The translations under genes and the position numbers were made by a program. 64,000 bases of DNA from a virus, in IMG/VR virus record IMGVR_UViG_3300046170_000446, positions 41,118-105,117 of that record; one strand, written 5' to 3'. Within the stretch, counting starts at the first letter, position 1, and each line of letters begins with the position of its first letter. The notes under the pieces are model-generated. The model ran no database searches and had not been told where the DNA came from. It worked only from the letters and a program-made list of their open reading frames with translations. Of the stretch, positions 2,507-43,763 are shown in pieces.

Positions 2507-3034
2507 ATGATGAGGATCTTAGCCCTATTAATACTCTCTCTCCCTATTAGCTCTTATGCTAATGACCACAACCCTTGGGAAGTGAGCTTAGGCACTACTC
2601 AAATGTTCTTTGGGTGGTATGGTGAGGACTCCTCTCAAGTGCCTACCTCCTCTGCTACTCTAATCTTATCGAGAGAGCTTATCGGAGGTCTTTCCGCATG
2701 GGGAGTATTCAACTTGCCTCTAACTCCTAACAAAAGAGTTACCGCAGAGGGTGTGATTGAGGACACCATTACACTGCCTACCCTAATGTTAGGTCTAAGC
2801 TATGAGGCTCTGAGTTATCAATACGACGAGCGCAAAAGAATAGGCTTAGACGCAGGGCTTTCTGTAGGAAGACCGCTAACTCTAAAGGGTCAAGTGTTCC
2901 CTGTAGGGGCTTTTCGCCTCAAGCTCGTTAAAGATAACGAGAACACTGTCTACGTAGGGTTGACCACCTCACCTTACAACCCTGAAGGTGATTTGGTTTG
3001 GGGACTAATCTACGGAATGGGTACTAAATTTTAA
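2507..3034 (+). CDS. phage-encoded outer-membrane beta-barrel protein
   Basis: The 175-residue protein starts with a clear Sec signal peptide (MMRILALLILSLPISSYA, cleavage likely after the last Ala). The mature part alternates polar and aromatic/hydrophobic residues in strand-like blocks and ends in YGMGTKF; a C-terminal Phe is the usual signature recognised by the Bam machinery of Gram-negative bacteria. Lambda Lom and the superinfection-exclusion protein Cor are functional parallels, not homologues I can show. A likely role is altering the host surface, for example excluding competing phages. The site AAAGGA supports the start. Its stop overlaps the convergent glutamine synthetase stop. Confidence 0.7.
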   Translation: MMRILALLILSLPISSYANDHNPWEVSLGTTQMFFGWYGEDSSQVPTSSATLILSRELIGGLSAWGVFNLPLTPNKRVTAEGVIEDTITLPTLMLGLSYEALSYQYDERKRIGLDAGLSVGRPLTLKGQVFPVGAFRLKLVKDNENTVYVGLTTSPYNPEGDLVWGLIYGMGTKF

Positions 3035-4057
3035 AGTCCACAGGTGCTCTCTAAAAGCACTCTAGCTACCTCATAAGGGTCAGCGTTAGCGTTAGGTCGC
3101 CTGTCTTCTAAATACCCACAACCTGCGTCATAAACATTAGCAGGGATACGAACAGAAGCGGTGCGGTCTGACACTCCCCACTTAAACTCGTCGTAGCGAC
3201 ACGTCTCATGGTGGCCTGTAAGTCGGATTTCGTACCCTGCGCCGTACACATCTAAGTGCTCTTGTACGCGACCGCTAATCTTAAACAGTGCGTCCTCGAT
3301 ATGTGTCATCCCGTTTTCTTGCCTCATAGCTTCAGTAGAGAAGTTAGTGTGCATACCCGCGCCGTTCCAATCACCAGGTACAGGCTTAGGGTCTAAGGTT
3401 GCAGAGAGCCCGTAATCTTCACCCAAGCGGTATAATAACCAACGTGCTATCCACAGATCATCACTTGCCCTGAGCGCATCTCCTTCAGGGCCTCCGATTT
3501 GAAACTCCCACTGTCCAGGCATGACCTCAGCATTAATGCCTGTTAACATTAGGTCTGCCTCTAAGCAAACTTTCATGTGATGCTCTACGAGAGCTCGACC
3601 GTACACCTCATCAGCGCCTACTCCACAATAATAAGGGCCTTGCTCAGCGGGAAAACGTCTCTCTGAAGGGAAGCCCAACGGACGAGAGCCTTTATAGAGA
3701 GTGTACTCTTGCTCGAAGCCGAACCAAGCCTTTTCTTTATCTGCTCCGTTAGACAAGACCTCTCTTAAGAGCGCCCTTGTGTTGGTAGAGTGAGGTTTCT
3801 TATCTGCCCCATAGACTTCGCACATTAAGAGGATAGCTCCTTCTCCCCTAATAGGGTCTTTATATGCTCTCACGGGCTTCAAGATGCAATCTGAGCTCCC
3901 TCCCTCCGCCTGTGAGGTAGAAGACCCATCAAACTGCCACTCAGGGAGGTTTACCGCTAGAGGGACGACCTCACCCCCCGATGATCTTTGTCTTAGAACG
4001 TAATCTAGCGGTAGGCTTAGATCCGTCAACCCATATGTATTCAACTGCTCTTTTCAT
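3031..4057 (-). CDS. glnII: type II (eukaryotic-type) glutamine synthetase, frameshifted near its N-terminus
   Basis: Catalyses ATP-dependent synthesis of glutamine from glutamate and ammonia. Main-frame motifs are those of GSII: EWQFDGSSTSQAEGG, the metal/glutamate residues in FGFEQEY, GINAEVMPGQWEFQIG, the ATP/ammonia region GAGMHTNFST and the Arg-containing RLTGHHET...EFKWGV...RTASVRIP, ending with GYLEDRRPNANADPYEV. The conserved GSII N-terminus (VEYIWVDGSKPTARLRSKTK) is encoded in the neighbouring frame from ATG 4057, which has GAGG at proper spacing. The frames join if one base is removed from the C6 run at 3974-3979, giving about 341 residues, normal for GSII. The downstream frame alone would start at a poor TTG (4044). 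Apart from the shift nothing essential is missing. Confidence 0.93.
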
Positions 4058-18350: not shown

Positions 18351-20975
18351 CTATTTTTTCCACCAAGCCTTCTCTCCCTCTATCTCTTCCAAGGGCAGAG
18401 CCTCGTAAACATCATCAGGTAAGCTGTCGATACCTTGTAAAGAAAACCACTCACCCTTAAGGCGATGAGAGCCTAGTTTAATGTGCAAATCAGACTCCCT
18501 CCAACCCCAACCCTCGTAAGAAGCGATCAGCTTAATCTCTTCACTGTTACCTGTTTGAAGCTGGGCTACCCTCGCTTTAGGGTCTTTAGCTCTACCTATC
18601 TTCAAGTGTCCGTTACCTGATGATTGCATAATGTAAAGGTAATCCCCATTACGCTCTTTCTGAGAGCTCTGAGCCTCAGCCCATAAGAGGCGAGATTTAA
18701 TGCGAGCACTTAAGTGTGTATTCCTGTGTTCATCTTGAGAGTTAAGCACAGCCTTTTGGATCGCCCCCTCATTAGAGAGTAAGATTACTTTCTTCTTAGC
18801 TCTCGTCACCGCTGTATACAGAAGATTTCTCTGTAACTGGTTATGGAAAGCACTAATCATAGGGATTACAACAACATCGTATTCCTGACCTTGGCTCTTA
18901 TGGATTGTCATCGCATACGCAAGGCGCAAGAGGCTCGACGCTTCTGAAAACTTAATCCGCACATACCGAGCAGGGGTATCGTGGAGCTTAATCTCTATCT
19001 CAGAGCTTTTCGTGTCGATCTGATTAACCTTACCCACATCGCCATTGTAAACACCGAGCTTGTAGTTATTCTTGACCACCATCACACGGTCTTGCTCTCG
19101 GAGCGTATCGTTACCAATGCGCCACTCTCTGAGCCCTGCATTTGCAGGATTAATGCGCTCTCTAATCGAGCTATTCAAACTCGTCACTCCTGCGTCTCCT
19201 TTATGTCTAGGAGAGAGCACTTGGAAGTTGACGCGATCTCGGTAGAGCTTCGTAGCAATCTCGACAATCTTCCCTTGAGCATCCTTACCTGTATGGCACT
19301 CGTCTAATATGAAGTCAGAGTAGTTTGAGTAGTCAGGCATCAATCCTTTATGGATAGCGTGAGACGCATACACAATATCTGAGGTGTTCTCTTGCCTGAA
19401 AATCTCCTCTAAAGACACAACAGGGAACACTCCACAAGAAATAACCTCCTTGAGCACATTACCCGCCCCTACTGAAGGAAGCTGATTAACGTCGCCCACG
19501 AATACGAGCCTACACCCAGGCTTGGTGCTGTGTGTGATCCGATACAGCAAGTGTTGATCAAGCATCGAAGACTCATCAATCACTACCACATCAGCAGGAT
19601 GAGGATCTGTAGGCGTATAGCCCCACTCCTCTTTAGACCCGTCTGTGTTTAAGCCTCCATCGGTATCGCCTGTAATCCCTGCGTAAGAGCTTTCGCGCTC
19701 TCCCCCTGTATTAAGATTTTTGGCGCTAAAAGCTCTGTGTACTGTAGAGGCTGAGCAACCGCACACACTCGCGACCCTCTTAGCCGCAATCCCTGTAGGC
19801 GCTATGAGGAGCACTTGCTGACCCGCATCTCTCAATAAGCTCACAAGCATCTTTAAGGATGTAGTCTTACCTGTGCCAGGTAACCCTGTGATTACGGACA
19901 CTGGAGCTAACACAGCGTTTCTTACGCCTTCGAGTTGCTTATCTGTTAATGTTAAGGAAGCCTTGTAGCGGTCTAAATACATATCAAGAGCTAACTCAAG
20001 GTCGCCCCAAACCTCTTGGTTTTGGGGGTTGAGGCTTCTCGCAATCTCTAATCTTGACGTGTCGCTGAGCTTTGCGTCTGTTAATCTCCTCACCAGCGTC
20101 TGAGAGGCAGAGTTTTCGATCTTGTAGTTCCACAGATCGTAAATACTCACTTGACTGCCGATACGGTCTATGACGAGGCGCTTTTCTTTATGAAGCTCTT
20201 TAAGCAAAGCACCAATCTCTCCATCTGTGACGCTCGACCCGCAGAAACTACGTACTTGTTGAGCGAGGTACGCGCTACCAATGTAAAGATGTCCGAAGCC
20301 TCCCCCCTCACGCACAACATAATGGATTGAACCTCTTATCCTGTTAGGATTGCCGTTTAGTTTGACACCGTATTTCTGAGCTATGGTGTCACACTGTTCA
20401 AACTTGACCCCGCGCACCTTAAGCAAAGACCAAGGGTTAGCTTTAATCTTACTAGCGCAATCATCTCCAAAAGTGCGCCAAATAGTCCTAATCTTTTCAG
20501 AAGAGAGCCCTAAGCCGTTGAGGAAGTCGAGCGTTTGAAAGAAGTTTTTAACAAACAGCCACTTTACATTAACGTGTTGCGCTGACACCTCAGTGAGCCC
20601 ACACTGAGTCTGCAAGAAATCAACATCGCCTAACGACTTTAGGAAGTCTTCATCAGAGAGTGTCTTACGTAACTGTGCGAGAGTCCAAGCACCTACGCCA
20701 TACGAGACGAGCGCCTTTTCAGCGGTGTCTGCTGTCCACTCGCCCTTTACGCAAGGCGCGTTTTTGATGGTAAACTGCCGACCCCACTTAGGGTCTGTTT
20801 TCCAAAAGCCCTCAAAGCCAAACCATGTGCCGACTTGAACGTCAATACCTGGAACATTCCCTTTAACATCGACAAGTTGCCCTGTGTTGTCGAGCTTCAT
20901 TTTTAGGATATAAAAGTTTTGAGCGGGATTTTTAAACTTTACCGAGTGGACAGTACCACTTTCATATGCCTTCAT
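18351..20975 (-). CDS. recD2: RecD2-like 5'-3' helicase fused to a T5orf172/GIY-YIG-type domain
   Basis: Superfamily 1B helicase of 874 residues. An N-terminal OB-like and helix-hairpin-helix region (1-340) precedes Walker A GLPGTGKTT (about 363), a Walker B VVIDESSML (about 467), VFVGDVNQLPSVGAG, and the motif V/VI region MTIHKSQGQEYDVVVIP...LLYTAVTRAKK. After the helicase, residues about 775-850 form a separate domain: YLYIMQSS...LKIGRAKDPKARVAQLQTG...ESDLHIKL...GEWFSL. This is the pattern of T5orf172/MUG113 domains of the GIY-YIG nuclease superfamily. ATG 20975 has AGGAG 8 nt upstream; an upstream TTG is not needed. Translation may be controlled by the inverted repeat around the start. Confidence 0.9.
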   Translation of the reverse strand: MKAYESGTVHSVKFKNPAQNFYILKMKLDNTGQLVDVKGNVPGIDVQVGTWFGFEGFWKTDPKWGRQFTIKNAPCVKGEWTADTAEKALVSYGVGAWTLAQLRKTLSDEDFLKSLGDVDFLQTQCGLTEVSAQHVNVKWLFVKNFFQTLDFLNGLGLSSEKIRTIWRTFGDDCASKIKANPWSLLKVRGVKFEQCDTIAQKYGVKLNGNPNRIRGSIHYVVREGGGFGHLYIGSAYLAQQVRSFCGSSVTDGEIGALLKELHKEKRLVIDRIGSQVSIYDLWNYKIENSASQTLVRRLTDAKLSDTSRLEIARSLNPQNQEVWGDLELALDMYLDRYKASLTLTDKQLEGVRNAVLAPVSVITGLPGTGKTTSLKMLVSLLRDAGQQVLLIAPTGIAAKRVASVCGCSASTVHRAFSAKNLNTGGERESSYAGITGDTDGGLNTDGSKEEWGYTPTDPHPADVVVIDESSMLDQHLLYRITHSTKPGCRLVFVGDVNQLPSVGAGNVLKEVISCGVFPVVSLEEIFRQENTSDIVYASHAIHKGLMPDYSNYSDFILDECHTGKDAQGKIVEIATKLYRDRVNFQVLSPRHKGDAGVTSLNSSIRERINPANAGLREWRIGNDTLREQDRVMVVKNNYKLGVYNGDVGKVNQIDTKSSEIEIKLHDTPARYVRIKFSEASSLLRLAYAMTIHKSQGQEYDVVVIPMISAFHNQLQRNLLYTAVTRAKKKVILLSNEGAIQKAVLNSQDEHRNTHLSARIKSRLLWAEAQSSQKERNGDYLYIMQSSGNGHLKIGRAKDPKARVAQLQTGNSEEIKLIASYEGWGWRESDLHIKLGSHRLKGEWFSLQGIDSLPDDVYEALPLEEIEGEKAWWKK

Positions 20976-21012
20976 TGTCTGTACTCCTGATTGAGTTATG
21001 AGTACAGACAAT
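20974..21012 (-). promoter_or_regulatory. perfect 13-bp inverted repeat enclosing the recD2 ribosome-binding site
   Basis: ATTGTCTGTACTC and GAGTACAGACAAT are perfectly complementary around a 13-nt loop. On the mRNA the 3' arm holds the GAG of the AGGAG site and the first two bases of the ATG, so folding would block initiation. Confidence 0.7.
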
Positions 21013-27023: not shown

Positions 27024-27503
27024 TTACAGGTTATGTGCGAGGTACTCTGAGATGTCACCGCGAAGACCTGGGTACACGACGCTTAGCTGAGCGAGTGATT
27101 GTAGGTCGCTCGCTTGTTTACGGCGCTTAGTACGCTTAGTAGTCTTCGACTTGGTAGTCTTAGGCTTAGTACGCTTAGTAGTCTTAGGCTTGGTAGTCTT
27201 CGACTTGGTAGTCTTAGGCTTGGTAGCCTTAGGCTTGGTACGCTTAGTAGCCTTAGGCTTCGTTCGCTTGGTAGCCTTAGGCTTAGGCTTAGTAGCCTTA
27301 GGCTTCTTCGTTGTCTCAGCTAACTGAGTGCCAGCTTCCGCAATCGCCTGATTGAGGAGCTTCTTAACGGCTCTCTTGATAGCGCGACGGTTTTTCTCAA
27401 GACCCTCCTTCGCCACATAAGGAACACCATGCTTCTTAGCGATAGCCTTTAACGGAGTCGCCTTGATGCTTGAGTCTGCAAGTGCGCTAAAGTCTGTCTG
27501 CAA
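27024..27503 (-). CDS. C-terminal part of giant virion protein: SAP-like motif and histone-H1-like tail
   Basis: This frame continues the 27529-29397 frame once one base is removed from TTT at 27601-27603. The junction then reads K-T-T-K-S-T repeats into AIAKKVADLQTDFSALADSS. It holds a helix-extended-loop-helix segment (ATPLKAIAKKHGVPYVAKEG...RRAIKRAVKKLL) and about 70 residues of KATKPKPKATKRTKP-type repeats, like the C-terminal tail of histone H1. It ends with a normal globular-looking 30 residues (LAQLSVVYPGLRGDISEYLA). The apparent ATG 27503 is probably internal. Confidence 0.6.
   Translation of the reverse strand: MQTDFSALADSSIKATPLKAIAKKHGVPYVAKEGLEKNRRAIKRAVKKLLNQAIAEAGTQLAETTKKPKATKPKPKATKRTKPKATKRTKPKATKPKTTKSKTTKPKTTKRTKPKTTKSKTTKRTKRRKQASDLQSLAQLSVVYPGLRGDISEYLAHNL
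27125..27310. repeat. degenerate 9/12-bp repeats encoding K-T/A-K-P units
   Basis: On the plus strand, blocks such as GGCTTGGTAGTCTTA and CGCTTAGTAGCCTTA recur about 15 times, encoding Lys-Thr-Lys-Pro/Arg/Ser on the minus strand. Such arrays expand and contract easily. Confidence 0.8.
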
Positions 27504-27528: not shown

Positions 27529-29397
27529 TTAGTGGTCTTGGTAGACTTGGTGGTCTTGGTAGACTTGGTGGTCTTGGTAGACTTGGTGGTCTTGGTAGAC
27601 TTTGGTAGACTTGGTGGTCTTGGTGGTCTTGGTAGACTTGGTGCGCTTAGTACGCTTTGTACGGGCTCTAGACGAACGCTCTTCTAGTCTCGCAAGCTCA
27701 GCCTTCAATCTCTTTCTGATCTCTCTCAGGATCGCTTTACGGGCTTCTTCTTTAGTAGCTGTCGTTACAGAAGGAGTTAAGCCGTATTTAACAGAGAGTG
27801 CCTTGAGGTCTTTAACCTTCAAACCGCTGATACTGCGACCTCTTAAGTCAAGGAACTGCCTATCTGCGGATAACTCCTCTGCGCTGATTGTAGGAGTCGT
27901 CGGTGCGGTGGTCTTAGTAGTCCTTCTTTGAGCTCTCTCAGCAGACCGAGCCTTTGCCCTGTCAAGCCTCTCACGTCTCTCGTTACGCTCCTTGACTCTC
28001 TTAACGCGAGCTTTCCGAGCCTCTTCCTCAAGACGTTTCTTACGCTTCGCTTCTGTGTCTGCTTCAGCAAACTCTTGGCGAACGCGAGGCTTCTTTTGAG
28101 GTGCGGTAGCCTGAGTTGTACGAGCCACTCTTACCGACTTAATGTGCTGGAACGCACTATAGCGACCCGCAAAAGTGTTCAAGTCAAACGAAGAGAGGTT
28201 AATCGACTCACTACGAGAAATCTCAGCAAGAGCATCCTTATCAGGGGCGCTGTAAACGCGGTTGATATAGTTGTCAGCCCCTTTGCGACCTTCTACGGTG
28301 TTCAGGTCAAACGCTGAAATATCTCCGCCCACAGATCGAGCCTTGATGTTTAGGTCTTCTGCCGAGATCACAGTATCTGCGCCTTCTTCTATGAAGGAGC
28401 TCTTGATGTTCTCAACTTGCTCGTCAATCTTACGGACAATGTTGCGTCTTAGACTCGCTTCGGTAGAGCGAGCTGTTACACGGATGCCGAGCTTCTTAGC
28501 CACTAGAGCCAGCTTCTCAACTCCCTCAACAGGTCTGTTTCGCTTAACCGCAGTATTGGCTTTCTTTAAGCCTCTCTTACGCTCGCTGACGAGAGCCCGC
28601 GCACTCTTAATATTAGCGTCTAGCTCTACAAGTGCAGAAGCCGCTCCTGTATCGCCCTTACGCTTTGCTTGATTTAAAGAGGCTCTATTGCTGACGAGGC
28701 TCGCTAAGCTACTCTCAGCATTTTGGAGCAGAGTCTCTAGCTTGGTAACCTCGTCCTCTAAGACTTTAGGATTAACTCTCGACTTCATTTTCAGAAGGTC
28801 TGCGATGTCCTTAGCGCCCTTAGCATTCTTAGCCGCTACGTCTCTTAAGACTTCTAGCTCCGCACTGTCCGTCACCACGCGCTCAAGTTTCTCTTCAGCG
28901 CCACGTTGCTCAGCAATCGCCTTATCTGCATCCCCACGCGTCTTTAGGCGCTTCTTAAGGCGCTCATCAAGACGCATACTTAAAGTGCTTAAAGGTGTAG
29001 ATGCTCCCTGAGGATAGTCTTTCTTTAGGTACTTCATCTCGCCATAAATGCCTGCTTCTACAGCCTGCTTTGCGAGCGTGTCGAACATAAGCTCGTAAAA
29101 GCGTTGGTCAGCACCACCTGAGCCTGGGTCACAGATATAAAAGTCAGGATTACCCGTAATCCCGTAAGCCTGATACATAAACTCTGCGTACTTCGCTTCG
29201 TTACCTGCCAAGAGCGCCTTCTCTGCTCTAGCTTTGATGCCTCTAGCTTTCTTAGTTTGCGCAGAGGTAGGAGTCTTGGCATTAAGAGCAAAGAAAGCCA
29301 CGTTCCCTGCATTCTCGATCTTCCGCTCAAGATTAGCGATCATGGTCGCACCGACGCGAGCTGGCTTACGCTTGATGCCTCGAAGAGAGACTCCCAT
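27529..29397 (-). CDS. middle part of giant virion protein (second frame)
   Basis: This 622-codon frame encodes alternating helical and coiled-coil regions, several Ala-Lys-rich stretches and two SAP/HeH-like segments (VEKLALVAKKLGIRVTARST; GLKVKDLKALSVKYGLTPSV). The frame is coding well before its first ATG: codons from about 29520 to 29397 read NLAQEIETVRRETRTSQQT and contain no ATG, GTG or TTG. It must therefore be entered from the 29510-33583 frame (one extra C at 29517-29519) rather than started alone. The last 20 codons (VYQDHQ repeats) are an out-of-frame reading of the K-T-T-K-S-T repeat after the extra base at 27601. Confidence 0.65.
   Translation of the reverse strand: MGVSLRGIKRKPARVGATMIANLERKIENAGNVAFFALNAKTPTSAQTKKARGIKARAEKALLAGNEAKYAEFMYQAYGITGNPDFYICDPGSGGADQRFYELMFDTLAKQAVEAGIYGEMKYLKKDYPQGASTPLSTLSMRLDERLKKRLKTRGDADKAIAEQRGAEEKLERVVTDSAELEVLRDVAAKNAKGAKDIADLLKMKSRVNPKVLEDEVTKLETLLQNAESSLASLVSNRASLNQAKRKGDTGAASALVELDANIKSARALVSERKRGLKKANTAVKRNRPVEGVEKLALVAKKLGIRVTARSTEASLRRNIVRKIDEQVENIKSSFIEEGADTVISAEDLNIKARSVGGDISAFDLNTVEGRKGADNYINRVYSAPDKDALAEISRSESINLSSFDLNTFAGRYSAFQHIKSVRVARTTQATAPQKKPRVRQEFAEADTEAKRKKRLEEEARKARVKRVKERNERRERLDRAKARSAERAQRRTTKTTAPTTPTISAEELSADRQFLDLRGRSISGLKVKDLKALSVKYGLTPSVTTATKEEARKAILREIRKRLKAELARLEERSSRARTKRTKRTKSTKTTKTTKSTKVYQDHQVYQDHQVYQDHQVYQDH
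27531..27650. repeat. 18-bp tandem repeat (alternating GTGGTCTTG and GTAGACTTG)
   Basis: About 12 nine-bp units encode K-T-T-K-S-T on the minus strand. One unit has an additional T (27601-27603) that breaks the frame. Confidence 0.88.
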
Positions 29398-36114: not shown

Positions 36115-36972
36115 TTAACCGAGCACAGGGTTAGAGTACCCTGCTAAAACTCCTCGCTGATATTCCATTGAGGGAAGTTGATGAGCGAGCTTGGTATTCA
36201 TCTTGAGTGAGAGCATCTTGAAAGCGCCTTTGAAGCCATACTTTTTGACTGCTAAGACCATCCAGCTACTAAACCATGTGCCGAGGACGATCTTGATGCT
36301 TGTAAAGAGCGCCACTGTCCACCCAAGAGTGATCGTACCCTCTGAAAGCACCGCAAAATAGCTCATCACCCACGCCCACCCGAAGAAGGATATCGCCGCG
36401 ACGACAAGAGAGACTCCCAAGAAACCTGCGAGGTAGGTCAACACCTTTTGCGCGGTGCCTTTAGGTTTAAAAGCGTCTGTAGACTTACCTGAACTGAGGA
36501 TCTTGCTACCCTTAGTAAACTTATCAACCGTCTCAACGACCTTGGAGAGAAGGCGCTCAGACTTTCTGCGCTCTTTTTTAGCGGCTCTCGCAAACTCTTT
36601 GAAATCCTCGTAGGTCATTTGAGTGATTTCAAGATCAAAGCGATCTCCATTAAGATTAACGAAGATCTTCGCATCGCAGAGCGCACCTTGATAGCTGATC
36701 TTTATACCGTCAGCTTCAAAACGCGTAAGGGTTTTCTTGAAGTATGCCTCAGCCTGTTTGCGTTCCATATCAAACTTAGCCGTAATATTACGCTTACCCT
36801 CTACGCGGGCTCTCTCAATTTTAACCCTTTCCTCAGGAGGGATCTCTGCAATGCCTTTAGCGAGCTTAGAGATCGTTTTGTTAAGGCCGTAGTGCATACG
36901 AAGCACGTCATCGCCATTACGTAGGTAAACACCTTGGCGGTTTAAGTCTCGGATGAAATCGTTTGTACTCAT
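36115..36972 (-). CDS. membrane protein, paralogue 1 of a tandem triplet
   Basis: The 285-residue protein shares its plan with the next two genes: N-terminal L-N-x-x-G-[VI]-Y-[LIV]-[RQ]-N-x-[ND]-D motif and YGL, a Lys-rich helical middle, two or three hydrophobic helices at about residues 185-245, then KYGFKGA and KLA near the C-terminus. It is the most diverged of the three (the middle motif is NLNGDRFDLE instead of NNYLNRRG). The role is unknown. CGAGG precedes the ATG within an imperfect hairpin. Confidence 0.7.
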   Translation of the reverse strand: MSTNDFIRDLNRQGVYLRNGDDVLRMHYGLNKTISKLAKGIAEIPPEERVKIERARVEGKRNITAKFDMERKQAEAYFKKTLTRFEADGIKISYQGALCDAKIFVNLNGDRFDLEITQMTYEDFKEFARAAKKERRKSERLLSKVVETVDKFTKGSKILSSGKSTDAFKPKGTAQKVLTYLAGFLGVSLVVAAISFFGWAWVMSYFAVLSEGTITLGWTVALFTSIKIVLGTWFSSWMVLAVKKYGFKGAFKMLSLKMNTKLAHQLPSMEYQRGVLAGYSNPVLG

Positions 36973-37018
36973 TTTTTTTCCTCGTTAAGTGTGTCTTTTA
37001 ATGAGGAAGATCAAAAGA

Positions 37019-37837
37019 TTAACCGATAAATACGTCAAACTGACTTAAGAGGTAAGCCTGTTTTTTAAGTGGGGGCGCATCGTGGGCTAGCTTTGTCAAG
37101 TTTCGTGCTTTAAGTTTAACGCGGTTAACAGTCCCTTTAAAGCCATATTTTCTTACAGAGGCCATCAGCCACCTGAATAAGCCCGCCCCTAAGATAATGG
37201 ACAAGTATGCCATAACACCAGGTTGACCTGTCAGGATAGCGAGCACCATTAAGATTTGAGTGGCATGAGCACCTAAGTCTAAGATGTGTGTGACTAAGCT
37301 AATCAGCATCTTTGTCTTACGGGAGGGCTCTTTAGGCACTTCTCCTTTCCCCTCGTAGACAACTAAAGAGAGGTTAGAGAGCTTCTCTACCTCTTCTACA
37401 GCCTTCTCTAAATACTTCGCATAATCTTTATTTAGTTTACTCGTTTCCGCTACAAAAGCCTTAAACTCTTTTAAGTCTAAGGTGTCACCTCTACGGTTTA
37501 AGTAGTTGTTTGTAATCTTAAACGAAATATCTCCGTTATGGATCGCGCCTCTAACTTCTATGAACACGCCGTAAGCGCCGTATTTACTGAGGGACTTTTC
37601 TACATAAGAGTCCATTTTATCTTTGGCTTTATCTAAGACTTTCTTGAGGTTAGCCTTGCTATCTCTCTTCGCGTTATCGAGCATCTCTTGTTCTTTATTA
37701 CTCAGGCTTTGAGTCCCTGAAGCGAGCTTCTGCAACCCTTTCATTAAGCCGTAGTTGAAGCGGATAGCGTCGTTACGGTTTTGGATATAGATACCCTCTG
37801 AGTTGAGGGCGCGTACCATTGAAGCGTATCTTTGCAT
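37019..37837 (-). CDS. membrane protein, paralogue 2 of a tandem triplet
   Basis: The 272 residues show MVRALNSEGIYIQNRNDAIR, ISFKITNNYLNRRGDTLDLK, VVYEGKGEVPKEP, a hydrophobic region (ATQILMVLAILTG; VMAYLSIILGAGLF) and VRKYGFKGTVNRVKLKAR. It is close to paralogue 3. AAAGGA precedes the ATG. Confidence 0.75.
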   Translation of the reverse strand: MQRYASMVRALNSEGIYIQNRNDAIRFNYGLMKGLQKLASGTQSLSNKEQEMLDNAKRDSKANLKKVLDKAKDKMDSYVEKSLSKYGAYGVFIEVRGAIHNGDISFKITNNYLNRRGDTLDLKEFKAFVAETSKLNKDYAKYLEKAVEEVEKLSNLSLVVYEGKGEVPKEPSRKTKMLISLVTHILDLGAHATQILMVLAILTGQPGVMAYLSIILGAGLFRWLMASVRKYGFKGTVNRVKLKARNLTKLAHDAPPLKKQAYLLSQFDVFIG

Positions 37838-37854
37838 GATGTTTTATCCTTTTA

Positions 37855-38712
37855 TCAGTAGCGGTAAGCCATCATTAAGCCGACTTGATAATCCACCGAA
37901 GGTCGAGCAGACGCAACTTTTAGGCTTTCCTTTACTCCTTCTTCGACATCGCGAGATTTCAGCTTAAAGTAGTTAAAAGCGTCTTTGAAGCCGTACTGTC
38001 TTACTTTGTTAATGAGCAATGCTAATAAACCAGCGCCTACAATTCCTACAAGACCTCCTAAGACCCCCAAAATACTCATCTCTAAAATACCACCCCCTAT
38101 TAACAACCCTACACAGGCTATACCTTCATATAAAGCAGTGCCGATACCTAAGAGAGCTAATACATTAGTGACGACTTTCTTTGTCAGTGAGGTAACCTCT
38201 TTGGGGACTTCACCTTTGCCTTCGTACACTAAAGAGGACAAGTTGATTAATCTATCAACCTCCTCCATCGCTTCAGTCATGTATTTAGCGTAGTCCTTCT
38301 TTTGCTTGTGGACTTCAGCAGTAAAAGCCTTAAACCCTTTAGCATCCAACTTCTCACCTCTACGGTTTAAGTAGTTGTTTGTAAGGGTAAACGATATGTC
38401 TCCTTTGTGGAGAAGACCTTCGTATTCGATCTTCAAACCGTAGTTGGTAAACCTACCTAGCTTCTTTTTAGCGTAGGCTTCCATTTTCTTTTGGGTCTTC
38501 TCTGCAAACTTTTTTGCTCTTTCCTTAGCGCCCTTTTGAGCTTTCTCTAAGGCTTCAGCGTCTTTAGGGCTCATCTCTTCAGGTAGCTTCGATGCGAGCT
38601 TCTGTAAACCTTTAAAGAGTCCGTACTCAACACGGATCATGTCGTTGCGGTTTCGGACATATATACCCTCTGAGTTGAGAGCGCGTACCATTGATGAAGC
38701 ATATTTATACAT
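37855..38712 (-). CDS. membrane protein, paralogue 3 of a tandem triplet
   Basis: The 285 residues start MYKYASSMVRALNSEGIYVR and share NNYLNRRGEKLDAKGFKAF and VYEGKGEVPKE with paralogue 2. Two long hydrophobic helices occupy about residues 185-240 (IGTALYEGIACVGLLIGGG; ILGVLGGLVGIVGAGLLALL). The C-terminus contains SLKVASARPS, with the V-A-S sequence found between domains of the 61-64 kb proteins. GAAGGAAG precedes the ATG. Only 17 bp separate it from paralogue 2. Confidence 0.75.
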   Translation of the reverse strand: MYKYASSMVRALNSEGIYVRNRNDMIRVEYGLFKGLQKLASKLPEEMSPKDAEALEKAQKGAKERAKKFAEKTQKKMEAYAKKKLGRFTNYGLKIEYEGLLHKGDISFTLTNNYLNRRGEKLDAKGFKAFTAEVHKQKKDYAKYMTEAMEEVDRLINLSSLVYEGKGEVPKEVTSLTKKVVTNVLALLGIGTALYEGIACVGLLIGGGILEMSILGVLGGLVGIVGAGLLALLINKVRQYGFKDAFNYFKLKSRDVEEGVKESLKVASARPSVDYQVGLMMAYRY

Positions 38713-38766: not shown

Positions 38767-39567
38767 TCACTGAGCCTTAGAGATTAGGCTAGAAAACAGC
38801 TCTGTGTAAGGGTCTTTAAAACTCTCTAGCTCATCGTTATCCCGTACCTTTTGCCAAAGCGCATCTGAGTCCAAACTCTCATCCCCATCCATATTCCAGT
38901 AATCTATGAGGATCTCTTGCCCTAAAGAAATGTCCTCAGTAGCTATGATCGCGACCTGCTTCCTTTTCGGGAATAGCTTAGCTAAAGCGTTCACTCCAGG
39001 TATGTCCTCAAGCTCAGGCTCAGCGCGGTTGCAGTTATAAAGCACTCCATTACCAAGAGGGATCGCCTTACGCGGAAATACCCAAGGATAGACGTAATCT
39101 ATTAGACCACCTTCTACCGTCATCATAAGATAGGCAGACTCCGCAGGAGATATCACTAAGACAGGGCATACCTCAACGATGCTTCCTTTAGGGATGCTTA
39201 AGTTGGCAAACACCCCTCTCCCCTTAAGTCTGTTCATGTAAGAGACTTGGGTCTTTTGGATAATGTAATCAGGCAAGTCCATTTGATCAAAACTAGACTC
39301 TTGTTTAACGCCTAAAAGGAAGTTTTCGAGCTTCTGTAAGAAAACACTCTGAAGATTATTAATGTGGCAAGTCCCTCGGTACATCTCGCCAGCGCCTAAG
39401 ACACCTGACGGGTAGGCAGAGCACATTACAAAGCTATACTCTCCACTCGATTTATAGCTCACAGTGCAATAAGTGTCTTTGAGCTCTAACTCACATCGGA
39501 GAAATTTGTCAGTAGACATCTCTCGGTTAACTTGAGCGTCCATCCCTTTTAAGAATACGGGTAACAT
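38767..39567 (-). CDS. SET-domain protein (putative protein lysine methyltransferase)
   Basis: The C-terminal half (about residues 110-235) follows the SET fold: LKGRGVFANLSIPKGSIVEV, YPWVF, LGNGVLYNCNRAEPEL in place of the usual NHS...PN knot segment, and AIIATEDISLGQEILIDYW matching the I-x-x-G-E-E-[IL]-x-x-x-Y strand with the catalytic Tyr. The N-terminal 100 residues are a separate Cys-containing beta-rich domain. It would transfer methyl groups from SAM to protein lysines; the substrate is unknown. The NHS to NCN change leaves activity uncertain. TAGGAG precedes ATG 39567. Confidence 0.75.
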   Translation of the reverse strand: MLPVFLKGMDAQVNREMSTDKFLRCELELKDTYCTVSYKSSGEYSFVMCSAYPSGVLGAGEMYRGTCHINNLQSVFLQKLENFLLGVKQESSFDQMDLPDYIIQKTQVSYMNRLKGRGVFANLSIPKGSIVEVCPVLVISPAESAYLMMTVEGGLIDYVYPWVFPRKAIPLGNGVLYNCNRAEPELEDIPGVNALAKLFPKRKQVAIIATEDISLGQEILIDYWNMDGDESLDSDALWQKVRDNDELESFKDPYTELFSSLISKAQ

Positions 39568-39580
39568 TAGAGACTCCTAA

Positions 39581-40546
39581 TCAGCTATTCGTGCCGTCAG
39601 TGTTGAATACCGCATCCCACCAACAGGCGATATCCCACTTGCCTTTGCCTGAGAAGTCTACATGATGGTGTCCCAAAATACCGCTATAATCGTTAAGAGC
39701 AAAGTCTTTATTGAGAACACCGTGGTGAACCTCGCCTTCCATATCCTCGCCATGCGATCCGCGAGGTGAGCGCATCGGAATGCAGAACAGCTCGCTTAGT
39801 CCTTCTACGAGGTGGCGGGTCGCTTCCGCGATCTTTGGGTCGAGGCTAAGAATATTCTTACGACCTACTGAAGTAGGGTTTTTAATCTTATGTATCTCGT
39901 ACCCTTCTTTAGACTGATAGTGGTCATACCAATCATGAGTAGGTTGCTGGCAGATGTCGATACCTATAGAGGTCTTGTTAATAGGCCCACCATGCCATGC
40001 GTTGTGCTCAAGATCGAGCCACTGATAGATTACAGCCTCACCGTCTTCGTTAAGACCGATACCAAAGTGTGAAGACGCATCTCTTGAAGTGAATACATTA
40101 TAGCAGTGCTTAGGATTAAGCCCTCCCCAATGGATAACAATGTTGCGGATTTCTTTGCCACTACGAGAAGAAAACTTACCGTAACGGTGAAGGTCGAGCC
40201 CTCTAGGGTCATCGAAAGGCGTGATCAGCGTCTCAGAGTTAATGTTGAGGCGCTGGCCTCCATATACAACATAATTGTCTGTAATCGGGTCATATGTCTT
40301 AAGCATATGAGTCCACGTTTGCCGACCAAAGTAGCCGTCTACGCTACCACTGTCAAAATGATCTGTTTGGTACTGGATGATACCTTCAAGAAATTCAACG
40401 CTGTCGGCGCTATATGCCAAGTTAGGGTAGGCTGAGATCGCCCCTTCAGGGATAACCTTATCGCCCAAACCAAACCTCGCGTACATCTTAGCATTAAACT
40501 TTTTCGCTTTAGATGCATTAATATTACTTCTGAACAAGTCACTCAT
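39581..40546 (-). CDS. N-acetylmuramoyl-L-alanine amidase (endolysin, Amidase_2 type)
   Basis: Cleaves the amide bond between MurNAc and L-Ala of peptidoglycan. Amidase_2 features: IVIHWGG (first zinc His), ASSHFGIGLNEDGEAVIYQW, HNAWHGG, SIGIDIC and GHHHVDFSGKGKWDIACWW (second zinc His and catalytic Lys region). The first about 90 residues contain a peptidoglycan-binding-like segment with the DGYFGRQTW motif. I use ATG 40546 (AGGAAGG upstream) rather than the frame's first start. No signal peptide is seen, so a holin or a virion-associated route is needed. Confidence 0.88.
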   Translation of the reverse strand: MSDLFRSNINASKAKKFNAKMYARFGLGDKVIPEGAISAYPNLAYSADSVEFLEGIIQYQTDHFDSGSVDGYFGRQTWTHMLKTYDPITDNYVVYGGQRLNINSETLITPFDDPRGLDLHRYGKFSSRSGKEIRNIVIHWGGLNPKHCYNVFTSRDASSHFGIGLNEDGEAVIYQWLDLEHNAWHGGPINKTSIGIDICQQPTHDWYDHYQSKEGYEIHKIKNPTSVGRKNILSLDPKIAEATRHLVEGLSELFCIPMRSPRGSHGEDMEGEVHHGVLNKDFALNDYSGILGHHHVDFSGKGKWDIACWWDAVFNTDGTNS

Positions 40547-40599
40547 TGTGCTCACCTTCCTGCTGTGTTTACAGGCGAGCATTTATTTAAGGACTATGA

Positions 40600-41765: not shown

Positions 41766-42380
41766 TTAGTCTTCCTCAGCCCCCAAAGTTTCTGAGTCAC
41801 TTTCCTCAACGACCTCTTCCTCAGCCTCCAAAGGCTCTGAGTCATCTCCCTCGATGAGCTCTACTTCAGCCTCTTCTTTTGAAGCGAGATACTCCTCAAA
41901 CCCAAAACGGTCGTTTATAAAGTCCCACACTTTGCTGTTCTGAGGCTCATACAGGTCATTACCAAGCTCATGGTAAGCCTCCGTGAAAGATTGAAAAGTG
42001 AGCTCGTCGCTGACACTGAGCCAGTGAGACACATTCTTAGCTTCATTAGAGATGTCTTGGATCGGTGTGTTTTGATACTTTACAGCATACACAGCACAAG
42101 CCTCATCCTTGTCAATCGCCACACCCTCTTCACCATAAATCCCAGCGAACAGAGGCGACCACACACCCGTGGAGTAATCTGAGTGCAGGTAGTTGGCTAC
42201 GTGGCAACGCCAAAAGTCTACTTGTGGTAACATTAGATCTCTCATTTGAGACATTAAGTCCCTGGCGATCTTATTTCGATTGCGCACTTTTCGACCGAGT
42301 TTTGATTGTGCTTTACGAGCACCTCTCTTACGTTGGTTACGTAGCTCTGAAGCTCTCTTCTTATGACTCTTCTTCTTCAT
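41766..42380 (-). CDS. charge-bipolar protein of unknown function
   Basis: The first 45 residues are strongly basic (KKKSHKKRASELRNQRKRGAR) and the last 40 strongly acidic (EEAEVELIEGDDSEPLEAEEE). The middle is a globular alpha-helical-looking domain with several Trp. Its start is 15 bp from the divergent chaperonin start. Such charge patterning suits nucleic acid or capsid interaction, but this is inference. Confidence 0.65.
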   Translation of the reverse strand: MKKKSHKKRASELRNQRKRGARKAQSKLGRKVRNRNKIARDLMSQMRDLMLPQVDFWRCHVANYLHSDYSTGVWSPLFAGIYGEEGVAIDKDEACAVYAVKYQNTPIQDISNEAKNVSHWLSVSDELTFQSFTEAYHELGNDLYEPQNSKVWDFINDRFGFEEYLASKEEAEVELIEGDDSEPLEAEEEVVEESDSETLGAEED

Positions 42381-42395
42381 GTAGGTTTAACCCTT

Positions 42396-43763
42396 ATGGC
42401 GATATTCGACAACCCCTCAAGAGAAATACTCAAAGGCGCGGAAGTAGTGGCTAAACTTATATCTCTTTCTTATGGGGCGCAACAAAATAATATCCTCTTA
42501 CAGCGCCGATCAGGGCTCACACACACTTTCTCAGCCCTCGCCATTTGTAATGAGGTCAGACTCGAAAACTCGTTGATGGAGATCGGAGTCCGTTTGATGA
42601 GAGACGTGTGTTTGAAGATGGACTCTAATCACGGAGACGGCGCTTCAACTGCGATCCTCATGGCTTACCGAGGCATGGCGGAGAGCACTCGTCTAATGGG
42701 AGACGTTGCAATCAAGCATGAAGAAGTCGAGGCTTCTATCCGATGCCTCAAGAGCACCGCTAATGTTAAGGACTTGCTTAATGTAGTATCTGAGCCTGAG
42801 GCAACACCTTTATTATTAGAGGCTCTGCAAGAAATAGGTGAGGACGGGACTATCCTTATTCAAGACGGGCAAAAGGTAGAGGCGACGCTAGAGTTTAAAG
42901 AGGGTATGCCAGCCCCCTTCAAGCGCCCTAATACGAAGTTTAAAGATGAGATGCTTGAGGGAGCTATGGTTGCGGTCTTTAACTACCCTCTCTGTGACGA
43001 GAGGGACATCGTGCCTGTACTTGAGGAGAGTAGCCAATGGCCTGACAACCCCTTGATCATATTTACTCCCTACATAGTGGGAGATGCGCTCAGGATATGC
43101 TTGTCTAATCAAGACAGTATTCCTAACATTGCGCTTGTCCCTGCTAAGGTTAAGCCTAATCAGGTAGAGTCTCACCTAAAAGACCTTGCGTCATGCGCCA
43201 ACGGGTCTTTTATTTGCAGAAACCACATGGACACCAAACAGTTTGACCCTTCGTGGTTTGGTTTCTTCCGTAAAATAGACTTCAAAGAAGACTCCCTTGA
43301 GATTACGTTTTACAATGAAGAGGAATACGTCGAAGCGAGAGACAAGCGCATCTCAGAGCTAGAGGGTGAGCTGGTCATAGCACCTACTAACTACGATCAG
43401 AGAGAGATTAGGAAACGTATCTCATATCTTGACGAGGGAGTTGCGGTAATAGGTGTCGGCGGGCATACCGAGTTAGAGAGGAAAGTTAACCGAGCTAAAT
43501 ACGAGAAATGGGTGCTCACAGCTCAATCTGCTTCAGGCGGGGTGGTCGGTGATATTAAAAGCTCCCTACAAACTCTCTCAGAAGACTGTTTAAACGTAAC
43601 ATTAAAGAAAATGCTCTTAGAGCCTTCTAAACTCCTAGAGGGCGGTCAGAACCCTCTAAGTTTGAGCGCACTAAGTGATGCGATTAGAGTCTCTGCATCA
43701 GTCGTCAACGAGTACGCTAAAATCAAAAAAGCGGTCACTATTCCCGCTCGAAAGGGTAAATGA
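42396..43763 (+). CDS. GroEL-like chaperonin (divergent, shortened)
   Basis: Group I chaperonin homologue of 455 residues, about 90 shorter than GroEL. The equatorial ATP site motif NHGDGASTAIL matches DGTTTAT with its catalytic Asp, and RKRISYLDEGVAVIGVGGHTELERKVNRA matches the GroEL segment of the second equatorial half. The position of GroEL Asp398, needed for ATP hydrolysis, is occupied by Lys (RAKYEKW), and the GGM tail is missing. The apical domain is diverged. It may be a phage-specific chamber or assembly chaperone with slowed hydrolysis. ATG 42396 fits the GroEL N-terminus better than an ATG 33 nt upstream. Confidence 0.85.
   Translation: MAIFDNPSREILKGAEVVAKLISLSYGAQQNNILLQRRSGLTHTFSALAICNEVRLENSLMEIGVRLMRDVCLKMDSNHGDGASTAILMAYRGMAESTRLMGDVAIKHEEVEASIRCLKSTANVKDLLNVVSEPEATPLLLEALQEIGEDGTILIQDGQKVEATLEFKEGMPAPFKRPNTKFKDEMLEGAMVAVFNYPLCDERDIVPVLEESSQWPDNPLIIFTPYIVGDALRICLSNQDSIPNIALVPAKVKPNQVESHLKDLASCANGSFICRNHMDTKQFDPSWFGFFRKIDFKEDSLEITFYNEEEYVEARDKRISELEGELVIAPTNYDQREIRKRISYLDEGVAVIGVGGHTELERKVNRAKYEKWVLTAQSASGGVVGDIKSSLQTLSEDCLNVTLKKMLLEPSKLLEGGQNPLSLSALSDAIRVSASVVNEYAKIKKAVTIPARKGK

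Follow-up and report, generated by a model that had tools for sequence, protein, structure and literature searches.

Here we identified, in a tailed huge phage, a SET-domain protein that belongs to a previously undescribed sub-branch of chaperonin-linked huge-phage SET proteins with a rebuilt NHS motif. A SET protein in a phage is in itself already known; what is new is this sub-branch, in which the gene lies near a GroEL-like gene and the histidine of the motif has been replaced in every member. The conserved pairing of the SET protein with a phage chaperonin offers a concrete hypothesis about its substrate, and the natural loss of the histidine across a whole lineage tests which SET residues are truly required.

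The window analysed here is a stretch of 64,000 nucleotides, bases 41118-105117 of a 105,117-bp IMG/VR record. The major capsid protein that it encodes (1486-2364) shares 89% identity with its counterpart in LR745208.1, an uncultured phage of 485 kb, compared with 48% for the Tunturiibacter jumbo phage Tunturi_5 and 38% for Bacillus phage G. Further genes of the window encode a family A polymerase, RecA, ribonucleotide reductase, and a RecD2-like helicase. The source is a tailed huge phage and a member of the huge-phage clade, and the initial annotation, which placed the SET protein in a phage, is borne out by the capsid kinship and gene content. The RecD2-like helicase (18351-21011, minus strand) carries a fused C-terminal T5orf172/MUG113 domain, and the window also contains a phage glutamine synthetase-like gene (3031-4044, minus strand; Gln-synt_C 3.7e-17).

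The SET gene (38767-39567, minus strand) encodes 266 amino acids from an ATG start. A ribosome-binding site, AGGAG (39574-39578, minus strand), can be read directly six bases before the start, and a gap of 13 nt separates the start from the stop of an upstream N-acetylmuramoyl-L-alanine amidase gene on the same strand (Amidase_2; 39581-40582; Pfam PF01510 E 3e-9). Searches with the full-length protein found no close homologues in phage records, IMG/VR, or GTDB genomes, and no PHROGs family for it. Three tandem paralogous proteins of ~270-285 aa with hydrophobic C-terminal segments are encoded at 36115-38712 (minus strand); two of them were searched against Pfam and one against IMG/VR, yielding neither a family nor a relative. 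The membrane protein next to the SET gene (37855-38712) was also tried as an anchor for finding relatives, and none were found.

The initial annotation had called this open frame a SET protein from its motifs and suggested a SET profile search. That search matched PF00856 over residues 116-223 (38899-39222, minus strand) at 35.2 bits against a curated cut-off of 22.4 (E 1.8e-8), far above chance, and searching the contig recovered the same match. The domain extends over approximately residues 105-226, which places the SET plan in the C-terminal half as had been claimed. On the cofactor side, SET motif I is present as GRG at residues 116-118 (39214-39222, minus strand). The predicted I-x-x-G-x-E-[IL]-x-x-x-Y end is also present, as I213-S-L-G216-Q-E218-I-L-I-D-Y223, and its last residue (38899-38901, minus strand) occupies the conserved active-site tyrosine position, aligning by profile with the Tyr of vSET and Set7. 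No variation is seen at Gly118, Asn178, Asn193, Glu218, or Tyr223 across the aligned homologues (44/44). The protein thus has the GxG, the Asn of NHSxxPN, and the final Tyr of SET proteins; the His of NHS is absent, with Cys179 in its place. The reported NCN (residues 178-180; 39028-39036, minus strand) is real, and the substitution runs through the whole phage sub-branch described below.

The N-terminal region (residues 1-105; 39253-39567, minus strand) belongs to no known family, with no Pfam match outside the SET domain and no significant match among the open reading frames of the window. It occupies the place of a zinc ribbon (CPDCG...CxxC) in the seven closest phage relatives. Two candidate explanations were not supported: a degenerate zinc ribbon, as Cys 25, 34, 49, and 67 are scattered without a CxxC, and a domain common to neighbouring proteins.

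We modelled residues 105-266 with AlphaFold2 using an alignment of 44 sequences, giving a mean pLDDT of 73.6 with most blocks of the SET core at 67-92. A first prediction, of the full protein with eight sequences, had a mean pLDDT of 46.9 and was discarded. In a Foldseek search of the PDB, the best match to the model was vSET of PBCV-1 (3kma; E 2.5e-9, TM by target 0.83), followed by Schizosaccharomyces pombe Set7 (5h6z) and Plasmodium PFL0690c (4rz0), and all 50 matches listed were SET domains. Searching a viral structure library gave matches annotated as SET proteins, from both uncultured Caudovirales phages and giant viruses. By single-sequence phmmer, the nearest solved structures were Set7 (3e-5) and PFL0690c (0.005), with vSET weaker. 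Based on the predicted structure, the window protein has a SET fold.

Since vSET is the closest solved fold, its choice as a comparison in the initial annotation was apt. Like vSET (A612L), the window protein is a minimal free-standing SET domain without pre-SET or post-SET regions, and the GxG, N...PN, and Tyr motifs are conserved between the two. vSET keeps NHS and, at 119 aa, lacks an N-terminal region; its methylation substrate is the histone H3 of a eukaryotic host. In contrast, the window protein comes from a bacterial virus and has NCN, a 105-residue N-terminal region, and a longer loop after the motif. Set7 and PFL0690c, the closest proteins by sequence and the next by fold, have the LG-x-G-x-[LM]-[YF]-N block in common with the window protein, but they are eukaryotic and have His at the NHS position. 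The free-standing SETs of Bacillota (for example, Sporosarcina L119 and the plasmid-encoded WP_019392813) are also minimal SET domains, with 32-43% identity over the domain; unlike the window protein, they lack an N-terminal region and have NHS in every aligned member. Relatives of this bacterial type are encoded in at least 496 stretches of GTDB genomes, and the 80 loci that were kept are from Bacillota wherever the organism is named.

Although the initial annotation was correct that a phage encodes a SET protein, it overstated the rarity of such proteins. Annotated examples include gp259 of Stenotrophomonas phage Moby and proteins in Caudovirales records, with others in Synechococcus phages, Vibrio GR11A, and LR756501, and ORF62 of Stenotrophomonas phage Ps15 has been called a SET domain protein (PMC9025141). 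A scan of IMG/VR for SETs gave thirteen loci, one of which (L211) matches over a short stretch only. Within the huge-phage clade, Pfam SET matches occur in 4/45 capsid-bearing records and comprise several unrelated types. One record (G019) carries two unrelated SET types, L084 and L086, of which one is a canonical NHS type and the other the chaperonin-linked type. Moby gp259, Ps15 ORF62, and the proteins of Synechococcus RB11-B, Vibrio GR11A, and the huge phage LR756501 resemble the window protein in being SETs of tailed phages. However, Moby, RB11-B, GR11A, and LR756501 fall outside the sub-branch in our tree; the motif is NSS in Moby and NHS in the other three, and among these four a phage chaperonin is found only in LR756501, 26 kb away.

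The sub-branch consists of the window SET plus seven zinc-ribbon SETs, which come from seven IMG/VR records of the same clade and were found by searching with the clade's SETs. In a tree of 54 SETs these eight form one group with support of 98/92, and the same group was recovered at 98/88 when the motif and insert columns were removed and two long branches were omitted. The zinc-ribbon SETs (L092-L098, LR745208.1) resemble the window SET in the loss of the His and in having chaperonin and DFW-x-x-H neighbours. They differ in their N-terminal CxxC zinc ribbon and in a neighbouring Dps-like ferritin gene. Identity between the window protein and these relatives is only about 25-29%. At the NHS His position of the 44-row alignment, the window protein has Cys and the relatives have Phe (5), Met (1), or Leu (1), while the His is kept in 36/36 of the other homologues. 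All eight members also have additional residues between this motif and the second Asn. The replacement is thus a property of the lineage rather than a sequencing error or the decay of a lone gene.

In the window, a divergent GroEL-like chaperonin is encoded at 42363-43763 (plus strand), 2.8 kb from the SET gene, on the opposite strand and with four other genes between. It matches GroEL structures by phmmer at 1e-31, and the chaperonins encoded near the SET genes of the seven relatives are its homologues. This chaperonin is shortened (~455 aa) and divergent enough that Pfam misses it at 0.01, though the phmmer match is clear. Across the sub-branch, a GroEL-like gene is located 1.2-4.8 kb from the SET gene in 8/8 members. 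Adjoining the chaperonin in the window is a gene for a DFW-x-x-H protein of an unnamed family (41766-42380, minus strand; phmmer 1.1e-10 to 1.7e-8 against the neighbours of L092, L093, and L094), which is common to the SET-chaperonin loci of the relatives; in the seven relatives it is encoded on the opposite strand. The relatives also have a Dps-like ferritin gene between the SET and GroEL-like genes (PF00210 only marginal). No match to it was found in the window's 105-kb record, which is possibly a fragment.

Part of this linkage may be inherited gene order. The distance between RecA and the chaperonin is ~28 kb in the window and ~29-54 kb in the relatives, and both capsid and RecA genes keep a coarse order relative to the SET-chaperonin cluster, so we rejected the idea that the linkage is free of inherited order. 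The polymerase gene does not keep such an order: its distance to the chaperonin is ~1-2 kb in the window but ~160-190 kb in the three relatives that yielded a match. In six further clade records (G004, G006, G016, G017, G022, and G034), the chaperonin occurs without this SET, and no SET lies beside it in the stretches read. Modest independent support for the linkage comes from two loci of another phage group (L206 and L207), where a canonical-NHS SET directly precedes a 437-439 aa protein resembling part of GroEL (L206:6767-8080, L207:6765-8084). These proteins are degenerate and match weakly (GroEL E 7e-6), and were missed by the genome search. SpoVR-, PrkA-, and PhoH-like genes were recognized by eye in the same stretch.

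We infer SAM binding, methyl transfer, a substrate in the chaperonin module, and a benefit from its modification as the steps of the best explanation. Made during phage infection, the window protein would methylate protein lysines using SAM and would belong to the small free-standing vSET/Set7-like type. Its target would be lysines on the phage GroEL-like chaperonin or on proteins handled together with it, the candidates being the DFW-x-x-H protein or, in the relatives, the Dps-like protein, and methylation would tune folding or assembly. If the enzyme is active, a substrate in the chaperonin module has somewhat less than an even chance. The lineage-wide linkage ranks the module above any other single named target, though it does not rank above all other targets combined. 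Against it stand the inherited order, the six clade records with a chaperonin and without this SET, and the lack of a detectable chaperonin in most other phages with a SET. Taken as a whole, a chaperonin-linked SET methyltransferase acting on the chaperonin module is a tentative explanation. A further proposal is rather doubtful at present: with its rebuilt NHS motif, the SET protein of huge phages would be a lysine methyltransferase dedicated to the phage's own GroEL-like chaperonin or to the clients of that chaperonin. If true, this would place phage chaperonins under the control of lysine methylation and make a viral chaperonin system the natural substrate of a SET enzyme.

It is also quite possible that the SET protein is an active methyltransferase with another target and that the chaperonin is simply a neighbour. 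Candidate targets are host proteins of the ribosome, RNA polymerase, or nucleoid, proteins of the virion, and DNA-binding proteins of the phage. Characterized prokaryotic SETs target DNA-packing proteins: cpnSET methylates the H1-like Hc1, Go1-SET methylates MC1-alpha, and BaSET methylates histone H1 (reviewed in PMC3980110). Given these precedents, the histone-H1-like product of 27024-27503 (minus strand), which is 21% Lys over its open frame, is a fair rival substrate. Most other phages with a SET have no detectable chaperonin, which also fits a different target, but the proximity of the chaperonin in 8/8 members of the window SET's own sub-branch does not. In our search of the literature, we found no substrate for any phage SET protein. 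The 27024-27503 product, whose likeness to H1 is one of composition, has KxTK/KPK repeats. A similar repeat is found at the end of the adjacent open frame (27529-29397), where it passes into a YQDHQV repeat, as though a different frame of the array were being read.

Both the chaperonin-module and other-target readings require catalysis, and the lost His is central to this point. The protein could instead be a pseudoenzyme, with the fold kept, catalysis lost along with the His, and a binding or scaffold role. This is consistent with the replacement of the His in 8/8 sub-branch members and 0/36 others. In yeast Set1, the H1017L and H1017R mutants are null, and the corresponding His mutant of MLL1 binds SAM poorly (PMC3585878), so the bulky Phe, Met, and Leu of the seven relatives cast some doubt on their activity. 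Conversely, Set1 H1017A is hyperactive, with methylation at or above wild type (PMC3585878), which indicates that a small residue at this position is compatible with activity and makes the small Cys of the window protein plausible in an active enzyme. The equivalent Asn is essential in Set1, where N1016A is null (PMC3585878). Asn178, Asn193, Glu218, and Tyr223 are kept in all eight members, which would be unusual for a dead enzyme and favours an active lysine methyltransferase, and the SET fold together with the retained Asn and Tyr argues for SAM-dependent lysine methylation. From these residues, the window protein is probably catalytically active, and a pseudoenzyme is unlikely.

It is very improbable that the gene is a passenger, a SET captured from bacteria that has no conserved role in the phage: Bacillota free-standing SETs are common and the several unrelated SET types in clade members point to repeated gain, but the sub-branch is deeply diverged and still has neighbours in common, the ribosome-binding site is good and the spacing tight, and none of the aligned bacterial SETs is close to the window protein (highest 41% over 103 columns).

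Two other features were observed in records of the clade. In the L095 record (G047:C1:425266-430158), the polymerase match is in three pieces inside one 1763-aa open frame, an intein-like pattern. A 290-kb clade record (L099:558-4158) contains two short genes in alternating tandem copies, one of which appears DNA-methyltransferase-like by eye.
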